From Candidatus Thalassarchaeaceae archaeon (GTDB lineage: Archaea > Thermoplasmatota > Poseidoniia > Poseidoniales > Thalassarchaeaceae), in the NCBI GenBank assembly GCA_943841885.1, contig CALSZZ010000002.1, positions 216,262 to 280,261 on the forward strand: a DNA stretch of 64,000 nucleotides, given 5' to 3'. The position numbers and the translations under genes were made by a program. Numbering within the stretch: the first letter of the stretch is position 1; the number at the start of each line of letters is the position of its first letter. This document shows positions 1-26,994 of this stretch, piece by piece. The notes beneath the pieces were generated by a model that worked only from the letters and a program-made list of their open reading frames with translations, did no database searches and was not told the DNA's origin.

Positions 1-1058
1 AAACCTCCTAATCCACATTCCAGGGCTTCTTTAAGGAATATTTCTTCTAATGATTTATCATTTAATCTCCAAGTTATATTCATCTTTGATCTGGAGTCTT
101 TATCTGCGTGAGGTTGCCAGAAATCTGTCCTATCCAGCTCCTCATACAGTAAATCAGATTTTTCTTTATTTCTTGCTATCGCACCTTTCATTCCTCCATT
201 CTCCTCTAGCCATTTGAATACACGGCCAAGAACAAATATGCCAAACGTATTCGGAGTATTAAACATTGAACCTTTCTCGATATGGGTATTATAATCCAGC
301 ATAGTGGGAATATCACTTCCAATACGAGATATTGCCCAAGGAGATAAAATAACAACTGTTATCCCACTAGGTCCTAGATTTTTCTGTGCACCTGCATAGA
401 TAATTTCATGTTTTGATATATCTATTTCTACTCCAGTTATATCGGAACTTGCATCAACAATCAATGGCTTTCCATCACTATTTGGAGGATTGTGGTATTG
501 AGTGCCATAAAGAGTGTTATTGGACGTGTAATGAACATATATGGCATCATCTCTGATTTTAAAATCACCTTCTTTCGGGATTCTTTTGAATCCATTAATT
601 TCATCACTCCATACTCCTTTGGCTTCTCCTATTCTACTTGCTTCCTTGAGGGCTTTTTTTGACCACCCTCCGGTGATGAGGTAGTCTGCTTTTTCTCCTT
701 CTTTTAGTATATTCAAAGCGGTCATATAAAATTGTAGAGAAGCCCCTCCCTGTAAAAAAAGTATTTCATAATCTTCTGGAACTGTTAATACTCTCCTCAC
801 ACTATCCATAGCGTCATCTATAACTTTTTGAAAAGTTTCACTTCTATGGGAAATCTCTAGTAATCCAAATCCACTTCCATTTAAATTAGGCAAGGATTCC
901 GAGACCTCTCTGATGACTTCTAAAGGCAAACCAGCAGGCCCAGCACCAAAATTATGTATACGTCCATCGCTATCCATGGAACCATGACAACGCCATAGGT
1001 CTTTGACTACATCGGATAAATCATCCAATACAGGGAGAAGTTCATTTCTATAATGCAT
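1..1058 (-). CDS. serC: Phosphoserine aminotransferase-like class V aminotransferase (3' end runs off the left edge)
   Basis: Minus-strand reading from ATG at 1058 is open to the window edge: MHYRNELLPVLDDLSDVVKDLWRCHGSMDSDGRIHNFGAGPAGLPLEVIREVSESL..., with NFGAGPAGLP and later GAQKNLGPSGITVVIL (SerC-type PLP lysine motif). Confidence 0.9.
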   Translation of the reverse strand, partial: MHYRNELLPVLDDLSDVVKDLWRCHGSMDSDGRIHNFGAGPAGLPLEVIREVSESLPNLNGSGFGLLEISHRSETFQKVIDDAMDSVRRVLTVPEDYEILFLQGGASLQFYMTALNILKEGEKADYLITGGWSKKALKEASRIGEAKGVWSDEINGFKRIPKEGDFKIRDDAIYVHYTSNNTLYGTQYHNPPNSDGKPLIVDASSDITGVEIDISKHEIIYAGAQKNLGPSGITVVILSPWAISRIGSDIPTMLDYNTHIEKGSMFNTPNTFGIFVLGRVFKWLEENGGMKGAIARNKEKSDLLYEELDRTDFWQPHADKDSRSKMNITWRLNDKSLEEIFLKEALECGLGG

Positions 1059-1063
1059 GACCG

Positions 1064-1687
1064 ATGCTTGTGATACGTATCGGACTTGTTATGCTTCAAG
1101 GTGCCCGACATGTCCATATTTCTTCCCTTAATAAGGCTGCCAAGGATTCTAATATAGAAATTAAAGTAATACAATTACGTAAATCTTCAGACTTACTTGA
1201 TGAAGATATTCACGCAATAATTATCCCAGGAGGTGAATCAACAACTATGCGTCTAACTGGCAATTCTCCCGATTCTCTTTTATTACCTAGCCTACTTGAT
1301 TGGTTAAGAAAAAGGCCCAATCTTCCTGTTTTGGGTACTTGTGCTGGTGCAATATTACTTTCAGACCCTCAAGATAAGAAAGAATCATTGATTGATGCAA
1401 CAATAAATAGAAATGCATATGGTAGGCAGATAGATTCTTTCCAAGCCGATATTCAAACTCCACTTCTCGAAAGGACCTTTCCTGGAGTTTTTATTCGTGC
1501 ACCTAAATTTAATTCTGATGTATCTGCCGAGGATATTGTGGCGATTTGTGAAGGGGAGGTAGTTGGCGTTAGAAAAGGGAACAGATTAGCCTTAACCTTC
1601 CATCCAGAACTCTCTGAAGACGTCGGTTTTCATCGTTGGTTAATTGAACGGGCAAGTACAATTGTGGAGGCGAAAAATGTCTCTTAA
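1064..1687 (+). CDS. pdxT: Pyridoxal 5'-phosphate synthase glutaminase subunit
   Basis: IGLVMLQGA, IIPGGESTTMRL, LGTCAGAILL and TFHPELSED are PdxT motifs. Confidence 0.9.
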   Translation: MLVIRIGLVMLQGARHVHISSLNKAAKDSNIEIKVIQLRKSSDLLDEDIHAIIIPGGESTTMRLTGNSPDSLLLPSLLDWLRKRPNLPVLGTCAGAILLSDPQDKKESLIDATINRNAYGRQIDSFQADIQTPLLERTFPGVFIRAPKFNSDVSAEDIVAICEGEVVGVRKGNRLALTFHPELSEDVGFHRWLIERASTIVEAKNVS

Positions 1688-2810
1688 TTTTAGCTTACCT
1701 CAACTTCCTAATTTACATGAAGCACCTGAAAAAACGGATGCTGAAGGATGTATTCAGTGTCAAATGGGTAGTAAATTAGTTTTATTCATAACGGGACATT
1801 GCCACTGGCAATGTGACTATTGCCCGCTTTCTGAAAATCGTAGAGAAATTGATTGGATGTACGCCAATGAAAGGAAATGTGAAAACTTCGATCAAGTAAT
1901 AGAAGAAGCTCATGCTATGCGTGCAACAGGTGCTGGAATAACTGGAGGAGATCCTCTCATGGCTAAAGATAGAACTATCGAAGGAATAAGGCGACTGAAA
2001 GATGAATTTGGTCCTCAATTTCATCTCCATATGTATACAAGTATACCATTCCGAACAGAATGGGCAAAAGATTTTGCAGATGCAGGATTAGATGAAATAA
2101 GATTTCATTTCTTAAATTTAGAATCAAAAAAATATAAAGAAACTATTTCTGCTTGCTCAAAGGCAGGAATATTCACTGGAGTTGAAATACCCTGTGAACC
2201 AGATAAAGAAAAAGAATTATTATTATTATTGGAAGATTTAAGAGATTTTGATATATCTTTTATCAATATCAATGAACTAGAGATAACGGTAGGAAATCAT
2301 GATAATATGGAGCTAAGGGGATTTAATTTATCTACAGAAATAACCGCTGGAGCAAATGGTTCTGCCGAATTAGCAATCTCTATGAAAGAAAGAGTAAATG
2401 CAGCAGAATTAGGGCTCCCAGATCCATTCGATGGTGAATTAAAACAAGCATATGGTTTCCATCTAAAATTCTGTACCGCTGTTTACAAAGATGCTGGGCA
2501 ACTTCGCAGACGTTTCCTTCGAAGGGGGGAATCAACCATAGCACCGCATGAAAATCTAACAGAAGATGGTACAATAGTATTTGGCGCCATTTCTTCTACA
2601 GAAGAAGATCAGGAGATGTGGATTTCGGAGATTATTGAAGAAACAAATCTTCCTCGTAGATTCCTATATTGGGATCCGAATTATCAAAGGATTGAATTGC
2701 CTTTAGTAGTTGCGGAATCTATTGCTAATGATATAGGTGCACCTGTATCATTCGTTGAAGTACTTCCTACTTTTGAAAGATTAGAAATGACTGTAATATG
2801 GCTAAATTAG
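1677..2810 (+). CDS. Radical SAM protein (COG2108-like, pyruvate formate-lyase activating enzyme related)
   Basis: CHWQCDYCPL is CxxxCxxC; GAGITGGDPL; ATG at 1677 overlaps the pdxT stop. Confidence 0.8.
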   Translation: MSLNFSLPQLPNLHEAPEKTDAEGCIQCQMGSKLVLFITGHCHWQCDYCPLSENRREIDWMYANERKCENFDQVIEEAHAMRATGAGITGGDPLMAKDRTIEGIRRLKDEFGPQFHLHMYTSIPFRTEWAKDFADAGLDEIRFHFLNLESKKYKETISACSKAGIFTGVEIPCEPDKEKELLLLLEDLRDFDISFININELEITVGNHDNMELRGFNLSTEITAGANGSAELAISMKERVNAAELGLPDPFDGELKQAYGFHLKFCTAVYKDAGQLRRRFLRRGESTIAPHENLTEDGTIVFGAISSTEEDQEMWISEIIEETNLPRRFLYWDPNYQRIELPLVVAESIANDIGAPVSFVEVLPTFERLEMTVIWLN

Positions 2811-2871
2811 AGTGATAAAATTAATATTTGTTTTGAACACATTGATAGAGTTTAGCATAACTAGTCGCTTC

Positions 2872-4707
2872 ATGCCTGTCCGGGTTTTAGATTTGGATAA
2901 TTCTAAAATTAATCCTTTTCGAAGACTTTCTGCATCTCAAGTAATAGCTTGGGAAAACTGTCCAAGACTCTGGTATTATGGCTGGAGGGAACGACTCAAA
3001 ACGCCACTTCCTCCTCAAATAATCAGGGGTAATGCAGTTGAAGAATGTATTTGCAGAGTTCTTCGTGATTCTCCATTGTTCATTGGCCCGGATTCTGATC
3101 AAGACATGACTTCGCCAATTGATGCTGCTGGATCTCCAGCATTAGACCAAGAAGGATGGGTAGGTCCTAATCTAAAATTAAGATCTGAAAACTTATGGCC
3201 AAATAATCGTAATGAGTTAGAGGAATGGGCATTTAAAAGAGCAATTTATCATTTCCAGGGGTGTTGGGAAAAAGCAATTGAAGATTGGGAATCAAATCCT
3301 AATCGTACAGGTGATTCTTCAGATATTACTTCTGAAGAAGCTCTGAATATGGTTTTTTCAGGAATTAGATTACATCTTGATGAGCTAGAAAGGTGTATTG
3401 AAAAAGGAGTAGATAGAAATCTTGAACTCTGGCGGAGAGGAGAATTTAGAGAATATTGGCCAGCTCCTGATGGTTTTCCAAGGAAGTGGAATACGCCTAA
3501 TCCTTCAGCATCTCAAGGGGATATTTCATGGCTTGAATCATGGGAATATGCTAGGCCATGGTTTGTTGATCCGGATGCTGCTCCTTTCTCTCAAACTACT
3601 TCACACCCTGATGGTTGGTTTCAAGGAGAATATGACCTAGTATATCGTTGGTCGGGAGAGCCAAATATTATTGATTTGAAAGCATCAGTAGGTAAAGGAG
3701 ACCGTTCAGCAGGATATGTTAAACAATTACAATTGTATGCATGGTTATGGTGGGAAACTCATGAACGTTCAGATGAAGTTAAAGGTTTAGAAATATGGTA
3801 CTTAGGGACCGAATCAATAAAAAAAATAGCTGTACCAAGTAAAGAAACTATGGAGATAATGTCTGCTGAATTATTGGAGATTTACAACTTAATTCATGCT
3901 CGTGACCCAGATATCTCTGATTGCCCGACTAATCCGTCTCCGCTCAATATCTTTAACAAAGGAGGAATTCCGGCTAATCCTCCTATAGATGCTACTCCAA
4001 AGTCACGTTGTAGAGTCTGTGAATTAAGGGCTATCTGCGAGGGTAGTGATTATGAGACAGATCTACCTTTAATGAATAGGATAGAAAAATTCGGCCATGC
4101 ATGGCCGGTTACTCCTTTGGGAGAAATAAAAACTAGATTTTCTTTAACAGGAGAAGTAATTCATCTTAGTGGCCCTGAAATATCATCTAATGGTGATATC
4201 GAAGTAAATTTTACCCTACAACACGGTTATGATCGGGCAAAAGTTAGAGAACATAGAAATGGAGGTTTCAAGAATATTACCAGATCAATTTCCGAAGGTT
4301 CTAAAATTAGAATAGATAATGCTCTTTCTTCTTTATGGAAAGGGCAACTGGTTATCGATTTAGATAATAAATCAAAGATAACTATGCTTAAAGACTCATT
4401 TGATGCACCTATTGTGGATGTGGAAACACGCATCAGTATTGTGGCTAGGGTATGGTCTATTGATGCCTTCCCAGATGCCAAAGGAATTAGAAGATGGTCA
4501 ATAACGTTGGTTGATAAATCCGGTTCTGGAGGAAGCGTTGCTTTCAAGCAATTTATACCGAATTCTGCTGCTGCTATAGCAAGAGGGGACATCATAGCTA
4601 TACTCAATGGTGAAGCAGGAGAATTCGCTGGAAGGTCTCAGATAAAGATCGGACCAGGAAGCAGAGTAGTCATTCTCAGGGATTCTGAAGATATCGCTTC
4701 ATTTTAG
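2872..4707 (+). CDS. PD-(D/E)XK family nuclease (RecB/Cas4/Dna2-like, probable Fe-S cluster) with C-terminal OB-like region
   Basis: SASQVIAWENCPRLWYYGW, NIIDLKAS...KQLQLYAWLWW, CRVCELRAIC (C-x2-C-x5-C). Confidence 0.7.
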   Translation: MPVRVLDLDNSKINPFRRLSASQVIAWENCPRLWYYGWRERLKTPLPPQIIRGNAVEECICRVLRDSPLFIGPDSDQDMTSPIDAAGSPALDQEGWVGPNLKLRSENLWPNNRNELEEWAFKRAIYHFQGCWEKAIEDWESNPNRTGDSSDITSEEALNMVFSGIRLHLDELERCIEKGVDRNLELWRRGEFREYWPAPDGFPRKWNTPNPSASQGDISWLESWEYARPWFVDPDAAPFSQTTSHPDGWFQGEYDLVYRWSGEPNIIDLKASVGKGDRSAGYVKQLQLYAWLWWETHERSDEVKGLEIWYLGTESIKKIAVPSKETMEIMSAELLEIYNLIHARDPDISDCPTNPSPLNIFNKGGIPANPPIDATPKSRCRVCELRAICEGSDYETDLPLMNRIEKFGHAWPVTPLGEIKTRFSLTGEVIHLSGPEISSNGDIEVNFTLQHGYDRAKVREHRNGGFKNITRSISEGSKIRIDNALSSLWKGQLVIDLDNKSKITMLKDSFDAPIVDVETRISIVARVWSIDAFPDAKGIRRWSITLVDKSGSGGSVAFKQFIPNSAAAIARGDIIAILNGEAGEFAGRSQIKIGPGSRVVILRDSEDIASF

Positions 4708-8808: not shown

Positions 8809-10389
8809 TTGAAAATAATGAATAATGAAAAAATTATCATTGATTCACTAAATCGTAAATTCAGAGTCCCCTATCCAACCAGACTAAGTAATGCACCTGA
8901 TGATTTAATAATAGCCCGAAAAAGTAGCCCATGGAAAATATATTTCGGCATGGTTGGTACGGTTTTACCTGCATTTTTTTTACTATATACATCATTGTTT
9001 ATTATTATTGGAATTATTGATCGCAATCCAATTATGACATTATCTGGTGGTCTATGTAGTATGCCACTACTTTTTATTATAATTTATTTGTATCGGCCTC
9101 GTTTAATACATGTAAAACTGGCTATTCCTAGTGAAAAAGGTCATTTTCTTCATCCTTTACCTTCTGGAGGTTCTTTACAAACTGATATGAAAACCGATTT
9201 AAAAAGATATATTATCAGAGATGATTCTGTACTCGATTTACCACCTACAAATCAATTATGGCTCGTATTCATCTCTGTAGTTATAGTCGGTATTTTATCT
9301 TCTATTCTATTTTTCTCCCAATTAGTTGGCTACATGGGAGTAATATTATTCGTAGTTATCGCAATCCCATTATGGTTGATTGGATTTTCCTTGCCTGTAC
9401 TTGCTTGGTGGGGAACTTCTACACAATCATTGGGGTTGCCCACAAAGAGGAGGGATGCAGAATCTTGGTTACTGGCAGGTATGGTTTCTGCATTCCCGGC
9501 ATTTATTTTCAATAGTTTTGCAGCCCCAGCTATAATCCCATCCTCATTCCCTTTATGGGCAAGTGAATTATTTTTATTAGCAATTAGTGCTCCATTTTGT
9601 GAAGAAATTTTCAAAGGATTGGCCGTAGCCTTATTTTTACCTTCAATAAAAAGCCCAAAACATGGGTTCCAAATAGGGTTTACTGTTGGTTTAGGTTTTG
9701 CACTAATAGAAAATTTTCAATATATTGGAGTTTCATTATTTGGTGGACCATTAGGGATAACTCTTACAATTTTAATCAGAGGAATAGGTTCTATTCCGGG
9801 CCATGCGGTTTGGACTGCAATTACGGGCACTGCCATGGGCTGGTTGGTGAAAGAAAAAAAATTTAAGAATAAATTAGAATGGCATGCAAAATCTTTGTCT
9901 GTTGGTGCTGTAGATTTTATTGAAGCCATAGGCATCGATTTTGATGGAGATGGGGATTTATCAGGACATAATGACTCGAATTTAGATATTGAATCCTCAA
10001 TTAATAACAATTCTAAACCTATTAAAACAGAGAAACCATGGCTTTTATTGGATAAGTCTGGAAAAATATTCGATCAATTTGAGATTACAAATCCTTCAAA
10101 ATCAAATAATTTTGATGATGATTATCATTCTAAAATAGTATCAGATTATAATGTATCTTCAGGATTAATTCTTCCAAAGTCAATATACGTCTCATTAAGC
10201 CTCGCTATCTTGGGACATTCCTTTTGGAATGCTAGTTCTTACTTGTCATATTTTCTTCCTGAAAAATATGGATTAGGGGAAACATATTCTTCCTTGATAT
10301 CTATTTTGTGGACACTAATATTGATAATTTCTATACTGTTTATTGCCAATCGTTTACTAAAAGGAATTAAAACAACAGAATTTAATTAA
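8809..10389 (+). CDS. PrsW-family intramembrane protease-like protein
   Basis: Multi-TM; CEEIFKGLAVALF, GFALIENFQYIG, GHAVWTAITGTAMG motifs. Confidence 0.8.
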   Translation: MKIMNNEKIIIDSLNRKFRVPYPTRLSNAPDDLIIARKSSPWKIYFGMVGTVLPAFFLLYTSLFIIIGIIDRNPIMTLSGGLCSMPLLFIIIYLYRPRLIHVKLAIPSEKGHFLHPLPSGGSLQTDMKTDLKRYIIRDDSVLDLPPTNQLWLVFISVVIVGILSSILFFSQLVGYMGVILFVVIAIPLWLIGFSLPVLAWWGTSTQSLGLPTKRRDAESWLLAGMVSAFPAFIFNSFAAPAIIPSSFPLWASELFLLAISAPFCEEIFKGLAVALFLPSIKSPKHGFQIGFTVGLGFALIENFQYIGVSLFGGPLGITLTILIRGIGSIPGHAVWTAITGTAMGWLVKEKKFKNKLEWHAKSLSVGAVDFIEAIGIDFDGDGDLSGHNDSNLDIESSINNNSKPIKTEKPWLLLDKSGKIFDQFEITNPSKSNNFDDDYHSKIVSDYNVSSGLILPKSIYVSLSLAILGHSFWNASSYLSYFLPEKYGLGETYSSLISILWTLILIISILFIANRLLKGIKTTEFN

Positions 10390-10444
10390 TGATGGAAATA
10401 AAACTCATAAAATAGAATTACAAGGGAATGATTCTTGACAACAT

Positions 10445-11209
10445 ATGCTAACAGCAACACGGGGGAGTCAAGTGGAAGTGACTAGTGAACTTTTTATTTC
10501 TATATCATTAGTTACATTATTATTATCCGTTTCTAAATTCTATGATTTCTTAGACTTAGGAGGTTTATTAGCCGCCTTAACTGTTGGATTGTTGGTATCT
10601 TTACTTGGCCATTGGACATGGTTAATTGTTCTAATGTCATTCCTAATAATTTCTTCAATTGTGACTAAATGGAGATATGAGGAAAAAGCATTAATTTCAG
10701 TTGCAGAATCTAATGATGGTAAACGAGGTTGGAAAAATGTTTTGGCAAATGGAGGAGGAGCATCATTAATAGCTGTAATCAATCACTCCATGGGAGGTCA
10801 TGATTTAGCTTATCTATCATTTTGTGCATGCGTTGGTGTAGCCTCTTCAGATACGCTAGCATCAGAAATTGGAAGTTTAGATCCAAGAACTAGAATAATC
10901 ACAACCTTGGAAGCAGTTCCTGCAGGGACAAACGGAGGAATGTCTCCTACGGGGACTATAGCGGCTTTTTACGGCGGTCTGATAATAGCAATAATTTCTA
11001 CTCTATTAGGTGCTTTAAATGCTGATACAACTCCTCCTTTATTTTTGTTCTTATGCATAACTGTAATTGGATGGTTGGGTTGTCAATTAGACTCTTTACT
11101 CGGTGCATTATTTGAAAATCGTGGCTACCTCGGAAAGCATGCAGTCAATTTCATATCAACAATAACAGGCTCAGTATTGGCGTTTTGGTCTGCAGTACTT
11201 TTTTTATAA
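10445..11209 (+). CDS. DUF92 (TMEM19/VTE6-like) integral membrane protein
   Basis: SSDTLASEIG...TNGGMSPTGTIAAFYGG typical of DUF92. Confidence 0.8.
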   Translation: MLTATRGSQVEVTSELFISISLVTLLLSVSKFYDFLDLGGLLAALTVGLLVSLLGHWTWLIVLMSFLIISSIVTKWRYEEKALISVAESNDGKRGWKNVLANGGGASLIAVINHSMGGHDLAYLSFCACVGVASSDTLASEIGSLDPRTRIITTLEAVPAGTNGGMSPTGTIAAFYGGLIIAIISTLLGALNADTTPPLFLFLCITVIGWLGCQLDSLLGALFENRGYLGKHAVNFISTITGSVLAFWSAVLFL

Positions 11210-11240
11210 TCAAATATTCTCAACATAAGTAGGTAATGTC

Positions 11241-13574
11241 ATGTCCCCCGAAAGTAAGAATTATTTTAAGATATCAACATTATTGATAATTACTATAGTA
11301 TTATTTATTTCTACATTTTCAAGTGCGCAAACATATGAGCAATATGATGGCCCAGGAATATCATATGATTATCCTGATACCCATATGTTATTCATTAAGG
11401 GAGATGGTGAATCTCCTTTCCTAGATAGAAATTGGTCAGTATTAACTGGTTTCCCTCAGGGTAGTGTGTCATTTAGTAGAGCAAGTTCTACGTTGAATCC
11501 AAATATCTTGAATGTCCAATCTTCTCCTACTGAAGAACCATTTAGATTTGAAGGAAATATTTCTGTGATCCTTTTTGCTTCTTTGGAAGGAAGTGGTAGT
11601 AATTCTTGTGAGGCATCTGATATTTTGCCTAGTCCGGTTGGCTCAGAGACTCAATTTGCGGTATCTCTTGCAATAGGTGGAATATCAATTCTTTCTAATG
11701 AATATACTGAATCTATTTCCATGTCAGAAGGATATACGTCGCCACATAAATTCTCCGTAGATGCTGGTGAAGTTAATGTTAGTTTGAACAGAGGCGATAC
11801 TGTAGATCTATCAATAGATGTAAGGCATGAATGTGTAGAATCTGGGGCACTTCTGTGGGGCACATACGATGTAATATCAGGAATATCATTTGAAGGTAAA
11901 ATAGTTGACGCGGAAGTCGATGTGATAGTTGATGCCAATAGGATGGTTAGGGTCGAGATGACTCCGATTTCTCCGTGGGGCTTAAGTGATTTTTCTCATC
12001 AAATTTTTGAGATAGTGGGTCCAACGGAATGGAGTAGTATGTATCATGGAGAATGGGATAATGAAGATCTAAGGCAGTATCATTTCGAAAATCCTCAAGG
12101 AATTAGGATTGGGGATGATAATAGAACTACTTACACTTGGTCAACAGATAAACCTCTCGAATCTGGTAATTACATGGTTGATATGTGCATAGATCTTTCC
12201 GATCAAGATCCTGCAGAAACCTGTAATATGATTGTAATATTACGTTTTAGTGTACCTGATGATCCAAAATCATTGATTAATGGTACATGGGCAGCTGTTA
12301 TAATTCCACTTGGAATTTCGGCATGGATATTTATTTCTATCAAGGAAGCAATGTTGCCTTTACCTGCATATGGAGTAATTATTTTACTTGCATTCGCTAG
12401 TTTAGGGCCAGCTATAAGCCTACCAGATATCGATTCTAATTCCTTCAGAGATAACGGTGCAGTACCTTCATTCATGTTAATTTCACACAACCCAGATACT
12501 GAATCTTTAACTCTATATGACTTAATGAAAGATTCAGACATAGTAGTTATTGGAATGTTCCAACATGGATCTCCAAATGCATTACTCCAATATGATGATT
12601 TTTCCAAATCACAAAAATATTCTGAGGCCGACATATCTTATGTCCAAATTGCAACTGGGGAAGGCCTAGAGGCTAGCTATTTGGATTCTTATTCCGATCT
12701 TCTAAACGGTTCATGGCCTCTACTTTTAGATGAATATGATTCTAGTGTTGGTTTATCTCTTCCAAACAAAGCTAGTGACGCAGTTTTAGTTATTGATTCT
12801 GCAGGCTTCATTACTGATTGGAAGCCAGGCTCCATGTCTTCAACAGAAATTGATGAGGCATCATCTAGTGCCTCATTTGGTTCTGGCAATAACCCTTTTC
12901 AGATAATCACATTAATTTTCTCTACAGCACTTTTGCCATTAATTGTTTTAGCAATGCCTAGGGATAGAAAATTTAAATTTCCAGAAGAACCTCTTTTGCC
13001 TGGTGCAGGTAGTTTGTTAATAATTTATTCAGCAGCAATTGGATTTACTTATTGGGCATTACCCGTTGCAATATTGTCCTCATTTGGACTTGGTTTTCAC
13101 TGGATTTGGATCGAATTGTTTCTCTCGTGTATACTAATATATCATGGAATATCTACATTAAAATCTGGTAGAATTATCGAAATTGAGTTTTTATCAAATC
13201 TTGGCTATAATCAATTGCCCAGTGAATATCGTTCATGGAAATCAAAAGAAAGTTTTAGTGAAGATGCATACTTAGGACTTTGGCTGGCTTGGCTATTGTG
13301 GCTTAGAATACCAGACCTAATTCCTCAGGGAATAGGAGGCATATCTAGGTCTGGTTTGTTAGGGCCCTTTTTAGGAATTATAATTTTCATTACTTTCATA
13401 TTCTTTGCAGGATTTTCTGTAGTAATCTCACGTAATATAGCATTAATTTTGGGCCCTATATCAAGAGTTTTCGGTGAAATGAGTATCGGATTAAGGCCTA
13501 GGGCGTGGGGAATCGCTTCAACCATTTTTGGATTGTGGATAATGATTAGTATTGTACTCGGACCTTTATCATAA
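11241..13574 (+). CDS. Large secreted/membrane protein of unknown function
   Basis: N-terminal signal sequence, long extracellular region, C-terminal multi-TM region. Confidence 0.6.
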   Translation: MSPESKNYFKISTLLIITIVLFISTFSSAQTYEQYDGPGISYDYPDTHMLFIKGDGESPFLDRNWSVLTGFPQGSVSFSRASSTLNPNILNVQSSPTEEPFRFEGNISVILFASLEGSGSNSCEASDILPSPVGSETQFAVSLAIGGISILSNEYTESISMSEGYTSPHKFSVDAGEVNVSLNRGDTVDLSIDVRHECVESGALLWGTYDVISGISFEGKIVDAEVDVIVDANRMVRVEMTPISPWGLSDFSHQIFEIVGPTEWSSMYHGEWDNEDLRQYHFENPQGIRIGDDNRTTYTWSTDKPLESGNYMVDMCIDLSDQDPAETCNMIVILRFSVPDDPKSLINGTWAAVIIPLGISAWIFISIKEAMLPLPAYGVIILLAFASLGPAISLPDIDSNSFRDNGAVPSFMLISHNPDTESLTLYDLMKDSDIVVIGMFQHGSPNALLQYDDFSKSQKYSEADISYVQIATGEGLEASYLDSYSDLLNGSWPLLLDEYDSSVGLSLPNKASDAVLVIDSAGFITDWKPGSMSSTEIDEASSSASFGSGNNPFQIITLIFSTALLPLIVLAMPRDRKFKFPEEPLLPGAGSLLIIYSAAIGFTYWALPVAILSSFGLGFHWIWIELFLSCILIYHGISTLKSGRIIEIEFLSNLGYNQLPSEYRSWKSKESFSEDAYLGLWLAWLLWLRIPDLIPQGIGGISRSGLLGPFLGIIIFITFIFFAGFSVVISRNIALILGPISRVFGEMSIGLRPRAWGIASTIFGLWIMISIVLGPLS

Positions 13575-13645
13575 TTTATGAATAAATTTCATCATTATGA
13601 CCGAGACCATCATAAGAGTGGGGTTTCTCGGAATGTTATCCCTAC

Positions 13646-23938: not shown

Positions 23939-26134
23939 ATGTCTGACAATTCTCCGCTTCTAATTTTATTTGGGTCTCAATCTGGTAATTCTGAAGAGAT
24001 AGCAACTCAAGCAGCTAAAGCTGCCACGTCACATGGCCTTCTAGCAACAGTAAAGTCCATGGATGAAACTTCAATTTCAGAGATTTCTAATAATAACAGA
24101 GTTTTGATTTGCTGTAGTACGTGGGGTGATGGAGAACAACCCGATAATGCTGAAGAACTATGGGAGGCCGTTAATGCTAATGAAGATATTAATTTAGAAG
24201 GCGTTAGCTTTTCTGTCCTTGCTCTGGGAGATTCATCATATGACTTGTTCTGTGAATCAGGGAAAGAATGGGATAATTGGTTCGAATCCAAAGGTGCAAC
24301 TAGAATACATCCTCGTGTAGATTGTGATGTAGATTATGAAGAACCAGCGAAATTATGGATGGATGCTGCTTTGCAAATTATGGCATCAGTAGAAGACAGC
24401 ACTGCCGAACAAATCCCCAAAGAATCTGTAACAATTCTCGATGAGCAAGTTGACGATGAAATCAATAGTTCTGTTGATTCTTCAGAATTCGACTCTTCAG
24501 GTATGGATGTAGACTCCTTTCTAAACGCGGGAGATAGGAGCCTTACTGTTTTATTTGGTTCGCAATCAGGCAACTCTGAAGAATTGGCCGCAAAGATAGT
24601 AAAAGAATCCTCTAAATATGGACTTATTGGAACAGTTCATGATATGGATGGTTTTGATTTCAATTCACTTTCGAAACATAAGAGAGTACTCATAGTTTGT
24701 TCAACTTGGGGCGAAGGAGAAATGCCAGATAATGCTGAAGAACTATGGAAAAACGCTAACCTTGAAAACAACCCTATCCTGAAAGGATTAAATTTTTCTG
24801 TCCTATCTTTAGGAGATTCTAGTTATGAATTATTTTGTCAATCAGGTAAAGATTGGGATCGTCGTTTTGAAGAATTAGGTGCTAATAGACTCGTTGCTAG
24901 GGTTGATTGTGATGTGGACTACGATTCCTTGGCTACCCAATGGACTTTAGAATCTCTAATACACATGTCTGCTGTAGATGGAACTGGTAATTTCCAAGAA
25001 GAAAAAATAGACTTGATTCGTAACTATGTAGACGGTTCTGACGCGGTTGGTGCAACAGGTGATGACGGTTTTAGTATCCCATCTTTAATATCTGAAAATA
25101 TACAAGTAGAAATTTCTATTTTTAGATATGATCCTGAAAGTAAATCGAGAGGAAAGGATGCATGGATTTGCTCTCTTCCAGGCCATATGTCTGTGTTGCA
25201 AACTCTAAGGACACTCAAATCCTCACATGATGGAAGTCTTACGTTCAGGGATGGATATTGCAATGATCCAAACACTGCCATTACAATAAATGGAAGATTG
25301 ACGCTACCGGGAACATTACGTCTTGATGCACTACCATTGAATGATGACGGTATTCTATCATTAAAATTGGCGCCTCTTCCATGTTTTGAGGTCATAAGAG
25401 ACTTACTTGTTGATACATGGACATTAGAAAGAAAGAGAGAATCAAGTAAACCTTGGATGGTTGCTGCTACCAGGGAAGGTAAAAGTACTCCTCAAGGACC
25501 TATGGGAACTATGTCTCAATCTACTGCGTCTTATTTGCATTCAATCAAGAACTTTCCAAGTTTTCCACTACTACATGCATGCTCTGATTCAACTCCCTTC
25601 TCAGAAAATTATATTGGGCCATCTCTAGTTGTCACTTCATGGGCTAGAAAAAATGATCCTCGTACTTCAGATACTAAAAAGTTAGAGATAGAAAACTATC
25701 TATCATCCTCCATTGGAATTAAGGCAGAGACAGATTTATCTTCAATACGCCGTCAAATATCTGTCTCTGATTCAATATCTGAAGCATTATTAGATGCAAA
25801 AACTTCCTCTCTTAATTCTGATTCTTTCAATGGAAGACACGGAAAATATGTTTGGTGGTACACTTGGTCAATCAAGAGTAGTGGTAAAGTAAATGATACA
25901 GTTATTTTTAGACAAGTATTAGGTCCTCTGGGGCTACTTAGTAATCTATTTTCAGGAGTTACTGCGAGAATGCTACTTGGATTCACTAGAACCGGAGGAA
26001 ATATGATTAACAATGGTCTAGGGATGATTCTTCCTCCTGCTGGAATCGGTAAAATGCCAAGACAATTTAATTCTTCAGTAGGAAACCATCATGAAGTTGT
26101 AGCCATATTCAATGAATTGGATGGTAGATTCTAA
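23939..26134 (+). CDS. Tandem double-flavodoxin domain protein fused to a cysteine-depleted SdhB-like region
   Basis: Two flavodoxin domains (LFGSQSGNSEEIA...LALGDSSYDLFC...RVDCDVDYEE and LFGSQSGNSEELA...LSLGDSSYELFC...RVDCDVDYDS), then FRYDPESKSRGK...LTFRDGYCNDPNTAITING...LPCFEVIRDLLVD...NYIGPSLVVTSWARKNDPRTSD, which resembles SdhB/FrdB. Confidence 0.75.
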   Translation: MSDNSPLLILFGSQSGNSEEIATQAAKAATSHGLLATVKSMDETSISEISNNNRVLICCSTWGDGEQPDNAEELWEAVNANEDINLEGVSFSVLALGDSSYDLFCESGKEWDNWFESKGATRIHPRVDCDVDYEEPAKLWMDAALQIMASVEDSTAEQIPKESVTILDEQVDDEINSSVDSSEFDSSGMDVDSFLNAGDRSLTVLFGSQSGNSEELAAKIVKESSKYGLIGTVHDMDGFDFNSLSKHKRVLIVCSTWGEGEMPDNAEELWKNANLENNPILKGLNFSVLSLGDSSYELFCQSGKDWDRRFEELGANRLVARVDCDVDYDSLATQWTLESLIHMSAVDGTGNFQEEKIDLIRNYVDGSDAVGATGDDGFSIPSLISENIQVEISIFRYDPESKSRGKDAWICSLPGHMSVLQTLRTLKSSHDGSLTFRDGYCNDPNTAITINGRLTLPGTLRLDALPLNDDGILSLKLAPLPCFEVIRDLLVDTWTLERKRESSKPWMVAATREGKSTPQGPMGTMSQSTASYLHSIKNFPSFPLLHACSDSTPFSENYIGPSLVVTSWARKNDPRTSDTKKLEIENYLSSSIGIKAETDLSSIRRQISVSDSISEALLDAKTSSLNSDSFNGRHGKYVWWYTWSIKSSGKVNDTVIFRQVLGPLGLLSNLFSGVTARMLLGFTRTGGNMINNGLGMILPPAGIGKMPRQFNSSVGNHHEVVAIFNELDGRF

Positions 26135-26994
26135 TGCCATTGAAGTATGCATATCATCCCGGTAATGTCTCTCACAGTAGCGCTCCAGAAGTTAATGATA
26201 CCGTAATCCCTTTGGCAAGATCATTGAATATAGAATTAATCCCATTGGAGGGTGCAACTAGTTGTGGCGCAGGCATTGTTCGTCAAGCTAATAAAAGACT
26301 CCAACTAACTTTGAATGCACGTACATTTGCGATGGCTGAATCTCTAGGTTTGGATATATTGACTCCTTGCGCTACTACATCAGGAAATTTAAATGAAGAC
26401 TTGTATACATTAAATAATAATCCAATTTTACTAGCAGAAGTAAATACAGTACTGCAAAAAACATGTGGTTTACAATTCAATGGCTCAATAAATGTTCATC
26501 ATTTACTCCATGTGTTAGTGGATGAAGTTGGCTTAGAAAAAGTATCTAAAGCTGTTAAAAATCCAATTAACTTCAATATTGCGGGTTACTATGGCCCGAA
26601 TATGCAGCAATCAGGGATGTGCGGAGGGGATAATCCATATGACCCCTCATATCTAGAGAAATTGATTGAAGCAATAGGGGGTAATCCTGTAATTTGGGAC
26701 AGTAGAACTCAAAGTGTTGGAGTACCAGGTTTACTTTCTGAAGAGCCCACAGTTTTGAAGCAATCCGCAAATGTAATCATGGACGCTAAAGATGAAGGTG
26801 CAGAAATTATCGTAAGTGCCTGTAATCTTTCACATACTGTTCTTGATATATATCAGGGCAAAGCATCAAGACAGGTTAAATATCCAATTAATATGCCAAT
26901 AATTCATATGACGGAACTGCTCGATTTCGCCTTTGGACATCATAATACAAGACTTGCTCAACTAAGAACCAGAATCGCGGTAATAGGTAACTAG
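26134..26994 (+). CDS. HdrB/SdhE-like (CCG domain) protein with degenerate cysteine motifs
   Basis: AYHPGN, TSCGAGIV, AESLGLDILTPCATTSGNL, VKHLL-like VHHLLHVL, GYYGPN, SACNLSHTVLD align with HdrB motifs but many Cys ligands are replaced. Start overlaps the upstream stop (TAATG). Confidence 0.75.
   Translation: MPLKYAYHPGNVSHSSAPEVNDTVIPLARSLNIELIPLEGATSCGAGIVRQANKRLQLTLNARTFAMAESLGLDILTPCATTSGNLNEDLYTLNNNPILLAEVNTVLQKTCGLQFNGSINVHHLLHVLVDEVGLEKVSKAVKNPINFNIAGYYGPNMQQSGMCGGDNPYDPSYLEKLIEAIGGNPVIWDSRTQSVGVPGLLSEEPTVLKQSANVIMDAKDEGAEIIVSACNLSHTVLDIYQGKASRQVKYPINMPIIHMTELLDFAFGHHNTRLAQLRTRIAVIGN

Follow-up and report, generated by a model that had tools for sequence, protein, structure and literature searches.

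A putative SdhB/SdhE-derived gene pair of Marine Group II archaea combines graded loss of iron-sulfur ligands with exchangeable ferredoxin and flavodoxin domains

Within the window, by which we mean the whole 64,000-nucleotide stretch of a Candidatus Thalassarchaeaceae genome that was analysed, two adjoining genes encode an HdrB/SdhE-like protein and a partner in which flavodoxins are fused to an SdhB-like region, and most of the cluster ligands expected of the two homologous regions are replaced (Table 1). With about even confidence, we interpret the pair as the SdhB and SdhE of an ancestral E-type succinate:quinone oxidoreductase, which would have lost its SdhA and been turned into an electron-transfer unit. 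Marine Group II are among the most abundant archaea of the surface ocean, and the pair occurs in all their good genomes.

The initial annotation described an open reading frame for an HdrB/SdhE-like protein with its CCG motifs altered one by one and its start overlapping the upstream stop in TAATG, and all of these features are present in the sequence, the ATG sharing one nucleotide with the TAA stop codon of the partner gene. The replaced motifs read PGN (N11), TSCGAG (S43 and C44) and C79-A-T-T82 in the N-terminal unit, and YYGPN (P155), SVGVP (S194 and V195) and C230-N-L-S233 in the C-terminal one. Three of the ten cluster cysteines are kept (C44, C79 and C230), that is, two of five in the first CCG motif and one of five in the second, short of the five per motif that characterise the noncubane [4Fe-4S] HdrB/SdhE class. 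By fold and sequence homology the protein nevertheless belongs to this class: it matches the NCBIfam models for HdrB (E=3.8e-39) and SdhE (E=1.8e-32), although neither score reaches the equivalog cut-off, as well as the HdrB of PDB 8rvv (E=1.2e-34), and its predicted fold, modelled with moderate confidence (pLDDT 66), compares with HdrB structures at TM 0.76-0.81. Homology to HdrB/SdhE is thus well beyond chance. The ligand changes are genuine and not sequencing errors, because identical residues recur across many independent genomes. The model also matches PDB 3kwl, an uncharacterised protein of Helicobacter pylori with 498 modelled residues (E=1.2e-6, TM 0.62, 16% identity).

The partner had been presented as a flavodoxin-SdhB-like protein; both kinds of domain were found, and the description had to be amended in that the window protein has two flavodoxin domains. 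These match Flavodoxin_1 (CysJ-like) in Pfam at E=1e-66 over the two copies, and the FMN loops SQxGN, STWGxG, PD and GD..Y are conserved in the core flavodoxin of 95 sequences and in 29 N-terminal copies, which assigns the partner to the flavodoxin class with a predicted FMN. The Pfam scan detected no FAD/NADPH-binding domain of the CysJ or diflavin reductase kind in the partner. The SdhB-like region aligns end to end, C-terminal extension included, with the SdhB of family f6 of the same phylum, and all 12 ligand columns defined by f6 SdhB are replaced in practically all 95 partner sequences (with a rare single Cys), one of these columns being invariably Ser and another Glu (95/95). The structure model of the partner is confident for the flavodoxins only, and of low confidence in the SdhB-like region.

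Table 1. Features of the gene pair, by position in the window, and of related loci in other genomes, by their own coordinates.
Feature	Position	Strand	Remarks
Partner protein gene	23939..26134	+	731 aa; flavodoxin, flavodoxin, cluster-less SdhB-like region, C-terminal tail
N-terminal flavodoxin, aa 7-149	23957..24385	+	Exchangeable domain ([4Fe-4S] ferredoxin or absent in relatives)
Core flavodoxin, aa 201-345	24539..24973	+	Found in every homologue; FMN loops kept 95/95
SdhB-like region, aa 392-631	25112..25831	+	Fer2_3, E=2.1e-8; column counts
C-terminal tail, aa 632-731	25832..26131	+	Phylogeny that of the HdrB-like protein, unlike the rest of its own chain
Overlapping stop and start codons, TAATG	26132..26136	+	
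HdrB/SdhE-like protein gene	26134..26994	+	286 aa, ATG start, coordinates include stop; 7/10 cluster cysteines replaced
Degraded N-terminal CCG unit, aa 5-85	26146..26388	+	Pfam CCG, E=4e-9; ligand columns; N11, S43, C44, C79, T82 where five Cys expected
C79 codon	26368..26370	+	Invariant: 49/49 and 95/95 family sequences
Degraded C-terminal CCG unit, aa 150-236	26581..26841	+	Ligand columns; P155, S194, V195, C230, S233 where five Cys expected
C230 codon	26821..26823	+	Invariant: 49/49 and 95/95 family sequences
Recombinant loci, g14-type HdrB-like gene and partner C-terminus in g16 flanks	L067 (G133) 1447-4587; L066 (G162) 1-2343		
f3 cluster	L256 (G062 C10), ~8949-13581		Rieske-like TAT-signal protein first, read by eye, Pfam scan without match

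In a class-wide sample, the HdrB-like gene was found in all 34 Poseidoniales (Marine Group II, MGII) genomes of at least 90% completeness, and the three high-quality genomes without it all belong to f3, another family of the same class. The initial annotation had staked its reading on the pair being conserved and not decaying, and in the 95 genomes with a full locus, from which the ligand, domain-state and adjacency counts were taken, the two genes are adjacent without exception. Compared with its closest relative, the HdrB-like gene gave dN 0.015 and dS 0.418 (dN/dS ~0.04), and the partner gene dN 0.024 and dS 0.496, so that both are under strong purifying selection. That the pair is a decaying pseudogene or an assembly artefact has next to no probability: ligand loss alone would look alike, and isolated genomes do show a stop or frame anomaly, but decay is excluded because dN/dS is ~0.04, the frames are open in practically all genomes, and the same substitutions occur in independent assemblies.

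The named close relatives of the window genome are Ca. Thalassarchaeaceae and other MGII metagenome-assembled genomes. The neighbouring thermosome and helicase genes lie beside ribosomal-protein genes in an order common to both Poseidoniales families, and are uninformative as to pathway. The conserved order of the same two genes, as recognised by position and neighbours, has already been noted (PMC6741140), although under other annotation names and with these names as the whole entry, ligand loss, ancestry, domain exchange and function not being addressed. In the literature on Poseidoniales and Thalassarchaeaceae, we found no paper tying the group to such a flavodoxin. As regards individual loci, an apparent absence of the pair from genus g2 was rejected when a truncated partner was located there. 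The HdrB-like gene of one genome (G137 C29:1932-2780) contains a single in-frame TGA, and in another (L130 of G014, 541-3531) both genes form one 997-aa frame with a shortened partner C-terminus, either a true fusion or an assembly error. An entry titled 'Chloroflexi bacterium' (PBAZ01000031.1) holds a Poseidoniales locus at 70% identity, and is probably mislabelled or contaminated.

Outside the order, the nearest relatives found are the SdhA-SdhB-SdhE operons of f6, at ~40% identity, in which the ten CCG cysteines of SdhE are intact in 12/12 aligned sequences and the 12 cluster cysteines of SdhB are retained. Phylogenetic analysis united the Poseidoniales HdrB-like proteins with f6 SdhE, apart from HdrB (support 100/97), with a warning from the tool that long branches meet, and the SdhB domain layout and C-terminal extension are common to the partner and f6. 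As the nearest outside relatives are intact operons of this kind, the pair appears, on these sequence grounds, to descend from the E-type complex without its SdhA; the pair itself departs from that type in having no SdhA encoded alongside and in lacking the SdhB cluster cysteines. Whether the same genome also encodes a canonical Sdh complex was a point raised by the initial annotation, and a canonical SdhABC, made up of SdhA, a membrane subunit and an SdhB that keeps its cluster cysteines, was indeed found at a separate locus, in agreement with the complex II reported in MGII (PMC6336850). In the search for a second SdhA that might serve the pair, the only other SdhA-family protein of the window genome read as L-aspartate oxidase (NadB); further members of the SdhA family occur in other genomes. 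An intact SdhE elsewhere in this genome was likewise rejected, its other CCG proteins being of 931 aa and 670 aa and of other kinds. It is improbable that the pair joins a succinate dehydrogenase-type flavoprotein as auxiliary subunits. Direct descent from SdhB and SdhE and the canonical SdhA encoded elsewhere would favour such an association, but that SdhA is encoded together with a membrane subunit and an SdhB of its own, the latter with all its cysteines, the alternative flavoprotein is the apparent NadB, and electrons from SdhA could not pass through a cluster-less SdhB.

Mapping of cysteine conservation bore out the predicted loss of noncubane sites in one half of the protein and restricted it in the other. 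C230 aside, the C-terminal site is lost in 95/95 sequences; the N-terminal site, in contrast, is complete in 10/95 (genera g5, g17, g19 and g21, and two g16 genomes), and all ten of these genomes carry the ferredoxin form of the partner. In the remaining genomes, the N-terminal site reads N-S-C-C-T on the Thalassarchaeaceae side (family f1) and N-S/G-D-C-S/A in family f2. Most Poseidoniaceae retain an N-terminal [4Fe-4S] ferredoxin domain on the partner, whereas the window lineage has a flavodoxin at either carrier position, and its pair lacks any complete Fe-S site. The loss is therefore graded rather than uniform, and the pair is nearly iron-free in some lineages only, that of the window included. 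Accordingly, the original idea of a module rebuilt without Fe-S clusters fits every test that we ran, provided that it is narrowed to these lineages. Loss of the N-terminal site in one clean event is favoured by the HdrB-like tree (an f1 clade being rejected, p-AU 0.023) and contradicted by the partner core; its history may comprise either one loss plus exchange of the HdrB-like gene together with the partner tail, or parallel losses.

Of the ligand cysteines, only C79 and C230, one per former cluster site, persist in 95/95 sequences whatever else is lost, and in the HdrB fold both cluster sites face one active-site cavity. The HdrB-like protein could accordingly still be redox-active, with C79 and C230 as a disulfide or thiol pair at the old heterodisulfide site exchanging electrons with the flavodoxin. 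We regard this as unlikely, given that the surroundings of C230 are predicted with low confidence, and that C79 would still be a cluster ligand in the ten full-site sequences, where its conservation needs another reason. Far less probable is the binding of a different metal or cluster by leftover and substitute residues (C44 or D44, C79, N11). Within families there is almost no variation at N11 or in the residue pair 43-44 (S/C or S/D), and Asp, Asn and Ser are able to ligate metals; however, the N-terminal site has two cysteines in the window protein and one in most Poseidoniaceae, and we know of no noncubane site built from so few.

At its N-terminus, the partner occurs in three states, all confirmed in named assemblies: a [4Fe-4S] ferredoxin, a second flavodoxin, or neither, in which case the core flavodoxin comes first. 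At least 19 changes of state were counted on the core tree, several genera contain more than one state, and the N-terminal flavodoxins have several separate origins, one of them a local duplication in g7. Because ferredoxin and flavodoxin replace each other at one place, this often and from several flavodoxin origins, the N-terminal domain probably acts as an electron carrier. One partner (L183 of G119, 627-2597) has an in-frame stop between its ferredoxin and flavodoxin domains, due to a sequencing error or a split gene; its scoring as flavodoxin only was rejected, the ferredoxin frame lying upstream of the flavodoxin in the same frame, past this one stop. The initial annotation had left the choice between a two-protein flavin-based electron-transfer system and a scaffold. 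The flavodoxins with their conserved FMN loops and the ancestry of the pair agree with such a system, and the transfer role is the likelier half of the proposal. A role of the pair as a scaffold, structural or regulatory, or as a redox sensor, its flavodoxins sensing rather than carrying electrons, seems to us unlikely: the cluster-free SdhB and HdrB parts are strongly conserved without catalytic ligands, and universal retention beside a ribosomal-protein cluster points to no pathway, but electron transfer more easily explains why ferredoxin and flavodoxin replace each other at one position, and conservation of the FMN loops is complete.

Together with the final ~100 residues of the partner, the HdrB-like gene behaves as a single block, whose stripped version has replaced it in one genus by recombination. 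In two g16 genomes (G133 and G162), the sequence resembles g14 across the HdrB-like gene and the final ~300 bp of the partner gene, whereas in the flanks and over the greater part of the partner it is similar to that of other g16 (or g13). In trees of G133, the SdhB C-domain joins g16 (99/96), whereas the tail rejects a g16 grouping (p-AU 0.003). At a deeper level, the stripped lineages group together in the trees of the tail (aa 632-731) and of the HdrB-like protein (95/98 and 100/99, respectively), whereas the flavodoxin and SdhB-like core splits the two families and rejects this grouping, with log-likelihood differences of 172 and 120. In the test of the tail alone, f1 as one clade stays unrejected (p-AU 0.25), and because of this the deep event may have been either an exchange or parallel co-evolution. 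Since the tail and the HdrB-like protein are co-inherited, having one phylogeny and being replaced together in the recombinant, we infer that they may be in physical contact.

The arrangement in sister family f3 provides a hint as to where such proteins act. Two f3 genomes encode a dicluster ferredoxin fused to a flavodoxin that shares 55% identity with the core flavodoxin, and in one of them (G062) this fusion adjoins a cytochrome b, a cytochrome b-type membrane protein that bears an HdrC-like dicluster, and an HdrB-like protein that is intact. The cluster looks like a ferredoxin/flavodoxin-fed bc-type complex, and hints at a route in this class from flavodoxin, ferredoxin and HdrB-like proteins into a quinone/cytochrome b complex. 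A second f3 flavodoxin (L255 of G062 C10, 1432-2229) has a zinc-ribbon-like C-terminal tail.

Returning to the descent from an SdhA-less E-type complex, the comparisons show several steps. Order-wide, SdhB has lost its cluster ligands and the HdrB-like protein its C-terminal noncubane site, with loss of the N-terminal site later; SdhB has been fused to a conserved FMN-type flavodoxin, and its N-terminal carrier has been swapped repeatedly between ferredoxin, flavodoxin and nothing. The core flavodoxin, with its predicted FMN, would be the indispensable redox centre, the N-terminal ferredoxin or flavodoxin an interchangeable feeder, and the SdhB remnant a rigid scaffold, while the HdrB-like protein would have a docking role and no redox role, binding the C-terminal tail of its partner and offering the flavodoxin to a donor or acceptor, probably at the membrane. 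Since the flavodoxins lack an NAD(P)H domain, they are compatible with electron flow in either direction. Cluster loss and the replacement of ferredoxin by flavodoxin could represent an iron-saving trend that suits the open ocean. More tentatively, the pair could represent a new class of electron-transfer complex, in which an SdhBE core stripped of Fe-S clusters, a ferredoxin/flavodoxin carrier domain swapped by recombination, and a cluster-less HdrB-like block spread by recombination across Marine Group II would together form an adaptation to the iron-poor ocean. The data suggest that evolution removed iron from an electron-transfer machine stepwise. To our knowledge, these archaea have no cultured member; the natural forms grade from complete SdhABE relatives, whose SdhB and SdhE are together expected to carry five clusters, through intermediates having one noncubane site and a ferredoxin, to an all-flavin form, and this series makes the stepwise freeing of a protein complex from iron directly testable.

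Among known systems, the E-type (non-classical) succinate:quinone oxidoreductase resembles the pair in the sequences of SdhB and SdhE, in their order and in the C-terminal extension of SdhB; unlike it, the pair has lost the SdhB ligands and the C-terminal noncubane site, and has flavodoxin or ferredoxin domains fused at the N-terminus. The SdhE of the methylmenaquinol:fumarate reductase SdhABE of Wolinella and Campylobacter has a CCG fold, a 10-cysteine motif and zero transmembrane helices (PMC2680327); the fold is common to the HdrB-like protein, but SdhABE has a flavoprotein and the cysteine motif, of which the window protein keeps the three residues given above. The HdrB of methanogen heterodisulfide reductase (PDB 5odc and 8rvv) is similar in fold and length, but in the window protein both noncubane sites are broken and the tree position is outside the HdrB clade. 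Under iron scarcity, iron-free flavodoxin takes over the carrier role of ferredoxin, and in the pair flavodoxin likewise stands in for ferredoxin. Unlike that exchange of carriers, however, the pair swaps domains at one position within one polypeptide, repeatedly and between close relatives, which would make it an unusually clean record of carrier substitution.
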